Origin: Odontocerum albicorne
Taxonomy: Eukaryota > Arthropoda > Insecta > Trichoptera > Odontoceridae
Length of the DNA stretch: 64,000 nucleotides
Direction of reading: 5' to 3'
Assembly: GCA_949825065.1 (NCBI GenBank)
Contig: OX463854.1
Location: 15,723,112-15,787,111 of the forward strand
Shown: in pieces, positions 2,319 to 63,445 of the stretch
Layout of the letters: every line of letters begins with the position of its first letter
How positions within the stretch are numbered: position 1 is the stretch's first letter
Made by a program: the position numbers and the translations under genes
The notes under the pieces: model-generated
Told to the model about the DNA's origin: nothing
Seen by the model: the letters and a program-made list of their open reading frames with translations, nothing else
The model's database searches: none

Positions 2319-2731
2319 CAAGCCTGGGCAAACTTTTACAGCTGGCGGGCCGCATTGATTCTCCAAGTTACTCGTAAGCCGCAGTACTTTACATAATCTG
2401 GGTATATAATGTAGGATGTTTTTTTTTTCACGTTACCGTGTAATTTGGTTTTATAAAAAGACATTTGCACAAAATCTTCTGATAAAAGTATGGAAACGGA
2501 ATCTGCACTAGTGTGGACAGTGTTGAAGTGGAAGCTTGACTTTCGCAATTACGCCTGCCTGCGCACGCACGGCACGAGCACTCTACATTAAAGCCGCCGC
2601 ACACCATCTACCGTGGCAGAAAAGTATCGAAAAGAAGCATTTTTTTCACTCATGATTTTTTTCACAATTTTTATTTTTTAAATTCGGACCACATGAAAAT
2701 GGGCCGCGGGTCGTAGTTTCCACAAAACCTG
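2319..2731. mobile_element. hAT-type MITE with 8-bp target duplication
   Basis: A 413-bp non-coding element is bracketed by the identical 8-mer GTTACAAT at 2311-2318 and 2732-2739. Both ends carry CA-initiated, imperfect inverted termini with the GGGCCGC motif that hAT ends often show (GCGGGCCGC near 2346, GGGCCGCGGG at 2701). No transposase is present, so it must depend on enzyme made elsewhere. One TACTCGTA octamer lies inside at 2369. Confidence 0.85.
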
Positions 2732-3357
2732 GTTACAATCATAAAAATATTACAACCAGTTAATCCACAAAAATCATACTTCAAAATAACAGAATATACA
2801 AAGACAATTTAAAAGATAAATAGTATAAAAACGGACAAAATAAATATATTCATAACAAATTAATGTAACAATTTGTTCAAATGCTTGAATACGTGTACTT
2901 GATCCAAATTATGCGACATAAAAAGTTTCATGCAAATATTGAAGGCAAACTTGACTAAATGTGAATTATTTGGCTTTAAAAACTTGGATAAATCTTCCCA
3001 TTATTAGAGAAAATTGTTCCACAAAGCTTGACCTTTTTTATTTGTTTTCATCCCTTCACCATTCTTAAGAATAGTTACCATTAGATATTTTTATTTGTGT
3101 CTTCTGAATATTAAAATGTCATTCGCAGATACGGGGAAATACCCCATGTAATAGACACTGTCTCGTCATTCATGTTTTTATAGTTTACTTATTACTATTT
3201 TTTTTATATTTCTTTCTCTTTAAGAATGAGTTCGACTATCTTTAAAATAAAATTCTTAAAAAAAATAGTTTGTTCTCCAGTCGACTTTGCTTTTTAAATC
3301 GCGTTGTAGACGAACCATACTTAATTGTATTTTTATGTCTTGATTGATTTGTTACAG

Positions 3358-3490
3358 GAATGGAAGCCATCATGTCCGAGTTCTTCAACGACACTACCAC
3401 AGCATTTTACATCATCTTAATTGTGTGGATTGCAGATCAGTACGACGCCATATGTTGCCACACTACCGTCACCAAGAGGCACTGGCTCAG
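3358..3490 (+). CDS. Internal exon of a membralin-like gene
   Basis: This 133-bp exon runs from a TTACAG acceptor (ends 3357) to a GTTAGT donor (starts 3491). It enters with two bases of a Gly codon and leaves with two bases of an Arg codon, encoding GMEAIMSEFFNDTTTAFY, then IILIVW, then ADQYDAICCH and KRHWLR. From memory this matches a strongly conserved stretch of membralin (TMEM259), a multi-pass endoplasmic reticulum membrane protein implicated in ER-associated degradation. The hydrophobic AFYIILIVWIA run fits a membrane segment. The ATG at 3360 is an internal Met, not the start. The next conserved exon should begin with FFYLYHF-type sequence. I did not find it downstream, nor the preceding exon upstream, so the flanking introns exceed about 3.3 kb upstream and are possibly very long downstream. 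A detached exon fragment cannot be excluded, but intact splice sites and frame argue for a real one. Confidence 0.8.
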
Positions 3491-3550
3491 GTTAGTTAAT
3501 CCTTCTTATTATATTTTGTTGATAAATCAGCAAATAACTAATAACTTAAT

Positions 3551-4021
3551 ATGATCGTCCACAATAGTATTTTAATACCAACTTTAATATATGGAAGTGA
3601 ACCGTGGTCATGTAAAAAGACCGAAAGGAGTCGAATAAATGCTGTAAAAATGCGTGCACCAAGAATACATGGAGTGACAATTAATATCAGAATACGGAAG
3701 GAAGGGATGAGGAATAATTTTAACTTAAGGCTTATATGTTGAGTAAAGTGAAGAACAGCATACTGAGATGGTTTGGGCATGTAGAACAAATGAATAAATA
3801 AATACTAATATAACAAATATCTAGTACAAATGTGAGTGGAAGTGGCGTGGTAGAGAAATATCAAGGAAATTGTGGTTGGATTAAGTGAATGATATTTTGA
3901 ATAAAGGAAACGTAGAAAATCAGAGAAATCGTAGGAGTTTTATGAGAAGGTGTATGAATGTGTGTCGAGAAAAGTTTGGCGTTCTGTACTCTCTGTTTAC
4001 TCCGACAGGTAAATGACGTGA
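3551..4021 (+). pseudogene. LINE (non-LTR retrotransposon) 3' fragment
   Basis: The plus strand decodes the end of a reverse-transcriptase ORF with stops and frame changes. It reads HNSILIPTLIYGSE followed by a SRINAV segment, then LRWFGHVEQM. After that come the basic C-terminal region and the GVLYSLFTPTGK-type ending. The same C-terminal block recurs at least a dozen times in this window, so this is one abundant LINE family, 5'-truncated as usual. The clade is not assigned. Confidence 0.8.
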
Positions 4022-60190: not shown

Positions 60191-60358
60191 TTCGCATTGT
60201 TGGAAGATACTATCCCATGGAAGTACGAGTATACCCACCAGGTTGTACTGTATACAACTAAAGTGTAATACAATACAATACTATTTCAAAACCAAAATCA
60301 CGAAGTCTTACATTCAAAACCACCACCTTCCTATCTATCATTACACTCAACTTATATA

Positions 60359-61283
60359 CTACCTTGATCAAAAAGTTTTAGGACCGGCCACCGTGTAGCG
60401 CTGTCAGTCACCCGATTGGAATTCTTTTTTTTTGATAGGTTACCACATCTATCATTGACACTTCCCTCCAAATTTCAGCGTCATAGCTTGACATTTGTAA
60501 AAGTTACGCTGTACTGAGTACATCTACCTTTGTGCGTGTTTTCGATTTTTTACAAGTTTGAAAATGGCATCAACTGTATATCAACGAGTTTGTATTAAAT
60601 TTTGTGTGAAAAACGGATTAAACGGTCCGCAGACCTTGGAAATATTGGAGAAGTTTTTTGCGGTGGCACGAACGCTTCAGAAGTGGTCGTGAGTCGGTCG
60701 ATGATGACGAACACAGTGGCAGTCGAAAACTGATGAAAACATCGATAAAATCAAAGAAATGTTGGCCGAAACCGCAAATTGACCATCAGAGAGCTGGCAG
60801 AAGACTTTAACATCGCGTATGGATCCGCTCAAGACATTTTGGTTAGTGATTTGGGCCTCAGACGTGTCGCTGCAAAACTGGTGCCGAAAGGCCTCAATTT
60901 CATGCAAAAAAAGGACCGCGTTGAAATCACGAAAGACATGATTTCCATGAGTTTTTGACCAAAAACAACACGACTACTATCCAGCAGCCTTCCAATTCAC
61001 CTGATCTGGGTCCCTGCGACTTTTTACTGTTCAACCGACTTAAAAAACCGCTTCGCGGTACGCGTTACAGCACCTGAGAGGATGTCATGAAAAAATCGAA
61101 GACGGCTCTGATGGACATGCCGAAAATTGAGTACCAGCGGTGTTTCGAGGATTGGATCAAGCGCTGGCGGAAGTGCGTTGCAGTCGATGGGGAGTACTTT
61201 GAAGGGCACCATATCGATTTTGATGAATAAACTTGTATTTTCGACTTTATGAATAAACTCCTAAAACTTTTTGATCAAGGTAG
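60359..61283 (+). mobile_element. Mariner with TA duplication, catalytic core deleted
   Basis: Inverted termini CTACCTTGATCAAAAAGTTT start at 60359 and 61283, with TA at 60357-60358 and 61284-61285. The element is 925 bp; the missing part is the centre of the transposase gene. Confidence 0.92.
60564..61230 (+). pseudogene. Mariner transposase, core-deleted
   Basis: ATG at 60564 opens MASTVYQRVCIKFCVKNGLN, a mariner N-terminus. Further DNA-binding sequence follows in shifted frames (LTIRELAEDFNIAYGSAQDI near 60778-60840, then LGLRRVAAKLVPKGLN). At about 60950 the frame jumps straight to NSPDLGPCDFFLFNRLKKPL, carrying the third catalytic Asp, so the first two catalytic motifs are absent. The C-terminus is well kept (SKTALMDMPKIEYQRCFEDW, GEYFEGHHIDFDE) and ends at TAA 61228-61230. 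At least three frameshifts. A different mariner type from those at 971, 11140 and 26834. Confidence 0.88.
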
Positions 61284-61390
61284 TATAGTACATTCATTTT
61301 GTAATATTTTTTATCTGCTAAAAATAGTGCACTTCAATCCAGAGTTAGAGTCTGGTCTCTAAACGGTATTACATAAATTGTCTTTTTATC

Positions 61391-63445
61391 ATTATTAGTA
61401 TTGCAAAGTACTCGTAGATACATACTGTAAGAGATTTTTTTTTTATAATTATACATTCAATTTTAATTTTTACAAAATGTATACACAACTGTTAGTAAAC
61501 GTTTACTCCCATTTACAAAACGCTGTTTAGTGATCAAAGTTTATCGAAGTATGTCTGCATTTCACTTTTATCATGTATTTACTTATTAGTATTTTTGCAC
61601 TTGATATAAATAAAAAAAATGTGAAGCGCTGTTGTACAAAATAAGAATGCATCAAAAATTACGCTAGGCAGTTATTATCTACTAAATAAATTCGTATTGA
61701 AATATCTTGAACCGAATGCTTAAAAGTAATCATAAGTAATCGAAGTCACTCCAAGAACATTTTAGAGTACGTATGTTTAATGAAAACTGGTTGTTTCTAC
61801 CGTCTTGTTATTTGTATTCCACTTAATTAAATAAAAGTTTATTAAGCAACAACCCGAACCCATAAATTCTGTTCACATGGATATTAAAGTGCAATAAACG
61901 TTTCCATTTGTAACGTTTCACTTCGTGGACGGTGAAGAGCTCCCTCCTTGGCCACGTGTCATATTAAAAATTACCTTAATGATTCGCCTCGCGAAAAATA
62001 ACGTGTTGAATTCCTTATCCCCTTTCTCGCCATACAATGTTCAGCGGTTGTCAACGTGCGATACTTAAGATTTTCTGAAATGTTATTTCATAATTGTATA
62101 GGATGTGATGTCAGTTTTCCACCTTTTGTATTTTGTATTTTAACATTATTTATAAAGCTTCCGTAGTTTAAGGGTGATGTGTGTTATATATATTACGTTG
62201 TATTCAAAATCAAACTCAAAATACGCCATTTTTTTAGGATTAAAAATATGTCTGAAAGCTTTTAATATTAGTAAAAAAAAAATTTTTTTTCATTAGAATA
62301 TATTATTGTACCCTGAATCGTCGTGTGGTCACGGTTATAGTGCACACGCCTTGCAAAAGTGGGGTTTCATCGATACCCATCGATTATTGTGCTCATTTGC
62401 AATGGTCCAATATTTTGGTGACATCGTGTAAGAGTGTCCAATATATTAATTCCCTGGAGAACTGGAGAAAATTCATCGGGCTTATGTTGAGGATGTAGCA
62501 TGGATGATAAACATGAAGATTCGACTGTGAAATGTTCGAACATAATAATAGGTTAGACTGTAACCATCTCTGGACTTTCAAGATTTCCGATAGTATCCAA
62601 AACATGTTAAAAGTTCCCCAGTTTGTTTTTTTTTCAATCCATGTCTTATAAGCACCTTTGAGGTTGTTTAAATTGAGTATTCTTATTTATTGGAAAATAA
62701 TTTGATGTCTTTCCAGTCGTTGTATCAAGGCAATTTACAAAATAAATTTTCTGCGTTGGTTGGGAGAAATTTGGCAAAAACGTAATGTGAAAGATTGTAT
62801 CATATATTATTTAAACAAATCGAACGTCATTTAACAATAATGGATCTCAATTAAATTATTTTATGTAACTCCTATCTGTATTAACCTTATAGATTATTTA
62901 CTATTATTTTAATATACGTATGTGTATGTAATTTTGGTTGAATCGGTCGAAATTCGTTCATTGTTATTTTCTTTTGATTTATTTTGAAGTTGTTTTATAT
63001 AAAAATAGATAAACGTTTTCGTGAAATGTGCTCATTTATGAAAATTAACTATGTGTTGATTTCTAAAAAAAATAATTATACATTTAAAGTTAAAATATTC
63101 AATAAAATGTTGTTTACTGCTGCATTTTCCCTAAGCCCGGTATCATGCTTTCTCGTTACCGGTAACGGCCGCTATCGTTATCCGCCTTGTTACGCTGTTT
63201 CGCTTCCACACCTTCATAACGCCTGTTATCGTTATTATAATATTATTTTATTGTACTTCCATTCCTTACTTACAATGATAAAAATAATTTTAACTTAAAA
63301 TATAAAATTTTTGATTTACCTTGATTTACGACTGATATTGTGAATATGTTGTAAAAAATATGTATATTTTTGTTTTACTTGTTTTATGAAAATATTATAA
63401 TTTCTACAATATTTAGAAATATTTCTTACGATTGAAAAATAATTT
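61391..63445. other. Anonymous sequence with small GC-richer patches
   Basis: A mixed-composition TE-free patch lies at 61910-62050. A CpG-containing segment lies at 63148-63235 with repeated CGTTAYCG-like words. Open frames at 62393-62605 and 62984-63298 have no recognisable product. Confidence 0.4.

Follow-up and report, generated by a model that had tools for sequence, protein, structure and literature searches.

Octamer copies in the window and the genome

The stretch of DNA analysed here, hereafter the window, comprises 64,000 nucleotides of the trichopteran Odontocerum albicorne (GCA_949825065.1, contig OX463854.1, positions 15,723,112 to 15,787,111 of the forward strand). Scattered through it is an octamer, TACGAGTA in one orientation and TACTCGTA in the other, which is probably an excision scar of Tc1/mariner-superfamily elements. 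There are 25 exact copies, and their positions and 13:12 orientation split agree exactly with the original prediction. Thirteen lie on the plus strand (4581-4588, 7941-7948, 26526-26533, 30195-30202, 34530-34537, 38775-38782, 40275-40282, 42454-42461, 45499-45506, 53103-53110, 53680-53687, 54701-54708 and 60224-60231) and 12 on the minus strand (2369-2376, 4728-4735, 9691-9698, 10960-10967, 13637-13644, 17579-17586, 25953-25960, 36151-36158, 43551-43558, 50580-50587, 55949-55956 and 61409-61416). Based on the comparisons described below, the copies at 4581, 4728, 26526, 36151, 45499 and 60224 are classed as scars and that at 40275 as perhaps no scar, while the remaining exact matches are scar candidates.

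This number is far above chance, as 100 dinucleotide-preserving shuffles of the window yield a mean of 1.34 copies and a maximum of 7, and Markov models of orders 1-3 predict 1.4-1.8. Orders 4-5 (3.1 and 8.2 expected) were dropped as controls because the octamer itself trains such models. Across the window's own assembly (1.287 Gb; 1,287,057,991 bases in 1,241 contigs), the octamer occurs 190,753 + 190,749 = 381,502 times, against 15,081 + 15,070 = 30,151 for the reversed word. The resulting ratio of 12.7 shows that the frequency does not fall back to expectation genome-wide; the near-equal strand totals carry no evidential weight, since counting on both strands gives such a balance for every word. 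Furthermore, 15 contigs were each sampled with a 10-kb stretch at 3.00-3.01 Mb; these 150 kb contain 32 octamers versus 5 controls, and 11 of the stretches have one octamer or more. Extrapolated from this small sample (57 octamers in the 214 kb of window and stretches, background of ~0.026 per kb subtracted), the excess amounts to about 300,000 copies genome-wide.

The excess is also dispersed. In a 211.9-kb sample that leaves out the satellite part of locus L011, the octamer is found in 53 of 439 bins of 500 bp, versus 5.6 expected; no other octamer shows so strong a dispersed excess (z of 19, against 11 for the runner-up). Ranking was done by bins and not by raw count because satellites inflate the latter; the composition-matched octamer AAGTTACG nearly ties in raw count (55 versus 56 for the real octamer), and TAGGTATA is also high (80 versus 12) and lies outside the 25 most dispersed octamers. 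The satellite at L011 (~7900-9800) is of a 39-bp type and abounds in TACGAGGG/TACGAGGA words, which do not represent element ends; it was excluded from the counts.

Part of the genome-wide count is supplied by tandem arrays. Among the matches listed (100, all from the start of C1), 12 octamers follow each other at 45-bp spacing, with two one-unit gaps, and 18 at 50-bp spacing. These 45-bp and 50-bp arrays (C1:24114-24706 and C1:71937-72794) contain one octamer per unit and look like amplification of an already scarred unit. Additionally, octamers overlap or adjoin each other at C1:5810822-5810845 and L035:1010-1026, as if a scar had been struck again at its own TA.

Six base pairs inserted at a TA site

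Three internal comparisons had been put forward as showing the octamer as extra DNA, and two of them stand without reservation. In a 33-bp array, sister units read TATGTA-TCTTGC where the unit at 36151 reads TATGTACTCGTATCTTGC, and in an 89-bp triplicate CATCTA-ATACT in units 1 and 2 corresponds to CATCTACGAGTAATACT in unit 3, at 45499; both are clean 6-bp insertions at a TA. The third, at 26526, is weaker because its two aligned repeat copies (69-71% identical), which do lack the 6 bp, have TG instead of TA at the site.

For a broader comparison, the flanks of 76 octamer sites were joined minus the 6 bp and compared with the window and the sampled loci. Under a stricter test requiring 20 bases on each side, 15 sites were classifiable, and six of these have at least one precise plain-TA copy: one each for 4581, 4728 and L015:8560, seven for 60224, 11 for L032:884 and 16 for L044:1795. 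No paralogue in this test carries an exact octamer at the aligned position; 4728 and L015:8560 are ~75% alike, with their octamers 2 bp apart. Extra bases at a TA, flanked by TA on both sides and replaced by a plain TA elsewhere, are the mark of an excision footprint, and they are seen at 36151, 45499 and these six sites, and not at 40275. With a shorter flank, L004:6493 has four plain-TA copies, the closest 97.7% identical over 128 bases, and this pair dates one scar to after 2.3% divergence.

The sites themselves share a preference. After removal of the 6 bp, 75 of them show a palindromic ATA-TA-TAT logo relative to TAs in general, with 0.15-0.36 bits per position in ATA/TAT and at most 0.08 elsewhere out to position 10. 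Tc1/mariner elements favour such sites. Accordingly, ATATACGAGTATAT, the octamer with ATA/TAT flanks, is present 7,469 + 7,306 = 14,775 times genome-wide versus 24 + 20 = 44 for its reverse, so that logo and 14-mer count both display the palindromic AT-rich target preference of a Tc1/mariner footprint. Other potential scar words behave differently: no marked excess was found for the Sleeping Beauty-type TACAGTA (60 versus 50.9 expected), or for TACACTTA and TACCAGTA.

Decayed forms of the octamer are not in excess either. One-mismatch forms number 35 versus 45.5 expected in the window and 134 versus 140-146 in the 211.9 kb; counted by bins there are 118 versus 146, a ratio of 0.81 that compares with 0.83 ± 0.12 for matched words. 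Moreover, variants of the core carry background flanks, the flank-weighted estimate of decayed scars being -1.4 of 112 (standard error ~9) beside 75 exact ones, or a decayed fraction of -0.01 ± 0.08. Most of the octamers can therefore not be very old scars; the counts bound scar age only loosely and fit recent activity as well as programmed excision, and ATATAYGARTATAT would be a sharper word for measuring decay.

Candidate parent elements and a proposed excision mechanism

The genome contains elements whose ends could leave CTCG or CGAG, which the original prediction had proposed to look for. The end word TACGAGGG occurs 12,602 + 12,522 = 25,124 times genome-wide against 6,062 + 5,919 = 11,981 for its control. 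Pairing was examined in the first 100 places listed, which reach 5.65 Mb on C1; of the neighbours separated by under 1.6 kb, 16 pairs are convergent, one is divergent and one is same-strand. The convergent pairs span 448 to 1,405 bp, most commonly ~0.92 kb, which is mariner spacing, and terminal inverted repeats are present in all eight of the elements whose ends were read. These eight fall into families with the ends CGAGGGTCATCCAGAAAGTAAGG (five elements, 893-927 bp), CGAGGGTTGCTACTTAAGTTTTGAG (two, 1,289 and 1,314 bp) and CGAGGGCGGTCCGATAAGTAC (one, 1,188 bp), so elements of this genome terminate in the very bases found inside the octamer. One CGAG-ended element is seen to carry a mariner transposase: at L037, HTH_48 (Mos1-type) and Transposase_1 domains, encoded in two frames, come after the end TACGAGGGTGG, and the opposite end of the element is beyond the locus. 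Judged by these matching ends, the likely parents are CGAGGG-ended mariner families (TA-CGAGGG...CCCTCG-TA). Extrapolation from the C1 stretch alone gives about 3,600 elements with both CGAGGG ends exact, so that there would be about 100 scars for every such element. No special machinery would be required for this ratio if a cut-and-paste family maintained its copy number while jumping; a history both long and active would suffice.

The window had been said to lack any element with matching ends, which needs correction. A TA-flanked inverted-repeat scan returned at least 197 rows, in which the same palindromes mostly recur at shifted positions; a separate scoring was made for CGAG-like pairs. 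At 26832-27715 on the minus strand lies a degraded mariner of 884 bp, whose TA-flanked inverted ends are each one base off CGAGGG, with 21 of 24 end bases paired. Its frames are broken, and it shares 33% protein identity (E 4e-14) with the mariner at 1168-1530. A lone mariner-like end of the CGAGGG kind, TACGAGGGTGTCAAAAAC, is located at 17538-17575 on the minus strand, 3 bp from the octamer at 17579, with no partner end found. To judge from these two cases, the matching mariner pieces of the window look like poor excision substrates. The other mariner, at 973-2177 (open reading frame 1168-1530, minus strand), encodes Transposase_1 and DDE_3 domains; its inverted ends, also flanked by TA, are of another type.

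Other transposon loci were considered as the source of CGAG, and those examined do not fit. First-look candidates in the assembly, which are not confirmed copies, number 46,986 for Transposase_1 and 1,568 for the Tc1-type HTH domain PF01498 (150 scored in each case). Two mariner loci picked by score and open frame from the 150 (L046 and L047) share the 3' end of an TTAGGTTGATGC-ended family; this end is not CGAG, and TATTAGTA, the 4-nt scar that it would leave, occurs at background level (16 versus 17.7 expected). Among the 30 PF01498 loci (L016-L045), the end pairs found start CACT or CAG, and many loci have no clear pair.

Excision scars of Tc1/mariner-superfamily elements ending TA-CGAG...CTCG-TA therefore offer the best account of most octamers, with a probability of roughly 0.75. 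The original suggestion of a Tc1/mariner-type scar is upheld by the empty-site paralogues, the palindromic target logo and the CGAGGG-ended mariner-type elements. Under this reading, an element enters the TA of an ATA-TA-TAT-like site and duplicates it, in keeping with the logo and the 6-bp presence or absence observed. The form of the scar suggests that transposase would cleave each 5' strand at a point 4 nt within the element, leaving a 3' CGAG overhang on both chromosome ends. In antiparallel orientation, the two overhangs could form outermost C:G and G:C pairs, with two tandem G.A mismatches in between. Tandem G.A mismatches are unusually stable in this context, and such stability would account both for the uniform joint and for the existence of CGAG and CTCG versions; folding of a single scar strand says nothing on the pairing of two ends. 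After joining, repair or replication would retain one strand, giving either of the two octamer forms, and the 6 bp would then be inherited as plain DNA, as is observed for the octamer-bearing tandem arrays. Joints retaining both overhangs are rare, TACGAGCTCGTA being somewhat raised (53 genome-wide versus 7) and TACGAGTCGTA below its control (202 versus 787), which fits direct annealing over fill-in; as TACGAGTCGTA is below control, an odd sequence at L035 was not used as evidence. The ~300,000 scars may thus represent the accumulated record of CGAGGG mariner jumps. A more specific proposal assigns a 4-nt stagger to the CGAG-ended mariners, with overhangs that rejoin in a single exact manner, so that every jump would leave one frame-preserving mark open to counting; in our judgement it is about an even bet.

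Known systems, rival explanations and further features

Several described systems resemble the octamer in part. Although the original prediction knew of no description, a 6-bp insertion composed of the TA duplication and terminal bases is already in print as the footprint of Minos, a Tc1-family element (consulted portion of PMC10992017). According to Table 1 of PMC4678618, 16 of 32 mariner lineages of Rhodnius prolixus, in several subfamilies, have terminal inverted repeats starting CGAG, so different families of one genome could leave an identical scar. The mariners (DD34D) catalogued in that article share with the present ones a TA target, CGAGG-type repeats, lengths of ~0.9 and 1.3 kb and several families per genome; its main text nowhere uses the words 'footprint', 'excision' or 'excise'. 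Sleeping Beauty and Frog Prince likewise leave an overhang remnant beside the duplicated TA in two strand versions, C(A/T)GTA (excerpts of PMC3878927), but the remnant there is the 3-nt CAG and not the 4-nt CGAG. Remnants of short TA-flanked terminal inverted repeats at empty sites were recognized by comparison for Stowaway, a plant Tc1/mariner-type miniature inverted-repeat element (consulted portion of PMC1925063); that case involves several footprints at one plant gene, whereas here one exact word recurs genome-wide. Among the matches listed, no genome-scale counts of such scars were found, most subscription journals and all preprints being outside the coverage, and of the 515 papers that contain the octamer's two letter strings, the 20 listed have titles that look unrelated.

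A number of points weigh against the excision-scar reading. In vivo excision of mariner fits cuts 2-3 nt inside the element, in the pages of PMC2642840 consulted, whereas the scar here is 4 nt; cuts of that kind would give TACGATA or TACGTA, and neither is in marked excess (49 versus 43.7 and 114 versus 142.9 expected). Footprints of the superfamily in general are given as 2-4 bp (part of PMC7913693), which makes a 4-nt mariner scar unusual yet within range. The uniformity is also at odds with Minos in flies, where three sequenced excision alleles are 4, 8 and 6 bp (excerpt of PMC6980720), while one exact form dominates here genome-wide. At nine of the 15 classifiable sites a precise plain-TA copy is lacking, the paralogues giving gapped alignments, different letters or ties. 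The octamer at 40275 aligns without a gap to two window paralogues (~70% identity) reading TACAGGTA and TGCAAGTA, and may be ordinary sequence, consistent with one or two chance octamers. The real word contains a CpG that is absent from the reversed controls; the Markov controls agree nonetheless. Lastly, parentage is suggested by matching ends only, as an element, a scar and an empty allele were not seen at one and the same site. The scale, the uniformity and a mariner scar of 4 nt instead of 2-3 nt are the unusual features of this case.

A parent other than the CGAGGG mariners is conceivable, namely a Minos-like Tc1 element, or short non-autonomous copies of one, with CGAG ends of the TACGAGCC type (CGAGCC). 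Minos ends presumably start CGAG, and the Minos scar presumably has the same letters as the octamer. The 6-bp Minos footprint (PMC10992017, in part) does match the size seen at 36151, 45499 and six of the 15 sites, and the described 2-3 nt of mariner excision (PMC2642840, in part) favours this parent as well. It is nevertheless unlikely given the CACT or CAG starts of the end pairs found at PF01498 loci, the far fewer Tc1-type than mariner first-look candidates, and the fact that all CGAG-ended pairs in the window and sampled loci are mariner-like; no Minos-like element turned up in the loci sampled, where the search for them was incomplete. Much more improbable is a programmed process in which germline CGAG-ended elements are removed from body cells each generation, so that an assembly from body tissue would show perfect scars and absent elements. 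This animal counterpart of the internal eliminated sequences of ciliates, at hundreds of thousands of sites, would be hard to credit, even though it agrees with undetectable decayed forms and with window CGAGGG mariner DNA that is only end-damaged or one-ended (two cases). The octamer sits in the C1 tandem arrays as plain repeated DNA, exact two-ended elements still exist (16 pairs in 5.65 Mb), and the missing decay is measured loosely (standard error ~9 of 75). Mariner excision with a 4-nt stagger is far more likely than programmed removal.

Explanations without any transposon fare worst. A selected functional site, for binding or similar, or dispersal of the word by a repeat family of its own would explain one exact word and copies in tandem arrays, yet it leaves aside the precise 6-bp presence or absence at TA, the target-site logo, the lack of a graded near-match family and the flanks of the 25 window copies, which look unrelated beyond a few bases; its chance is slight in the extreme. 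Equally implausible are templated end-joining or polymerase slippage. Short insertions of such size can arise in repair, but these processes would hardly place a single fixed word at unrelated sites with a palindromic target logo in a genome that has elements with matching ends. The alternatives of the original prediction, a very short mobile motif or templated end-joining, are unneeded.

If the excision-scar reading is true, one short word logs ~300,000 past excisions, events usually studied singly, and the number, target choice and repair outcome of natural transposition would become directly countable, as would its timing with the help of relatives. The ~100:1 ratio of scars to surviving exact-ended elements would mean that most of the family history is invisible to ordinary repeat annotation. 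Since each scar adds 6 bp, or two codons, without a frame shift, scar formation would also keep supplying small in-frame insertions. For the CGAGGG mariners themselves, the octamer suggests a 4-nt cut.

The window holds some further features. Six near-identical 99-bp tandem units at 24462-25058 form an open frame of 202 codons. A GIY-YIG domain is encoded at 52179-52628 and a reverse transcriptase domain at 21178-21855, the frame of the latter running into the same YIGKTGRSFEKRF motif; we take these frames to resemble Penelope-like elements. Additionally, a run of 37 G is present at 51994-52030.

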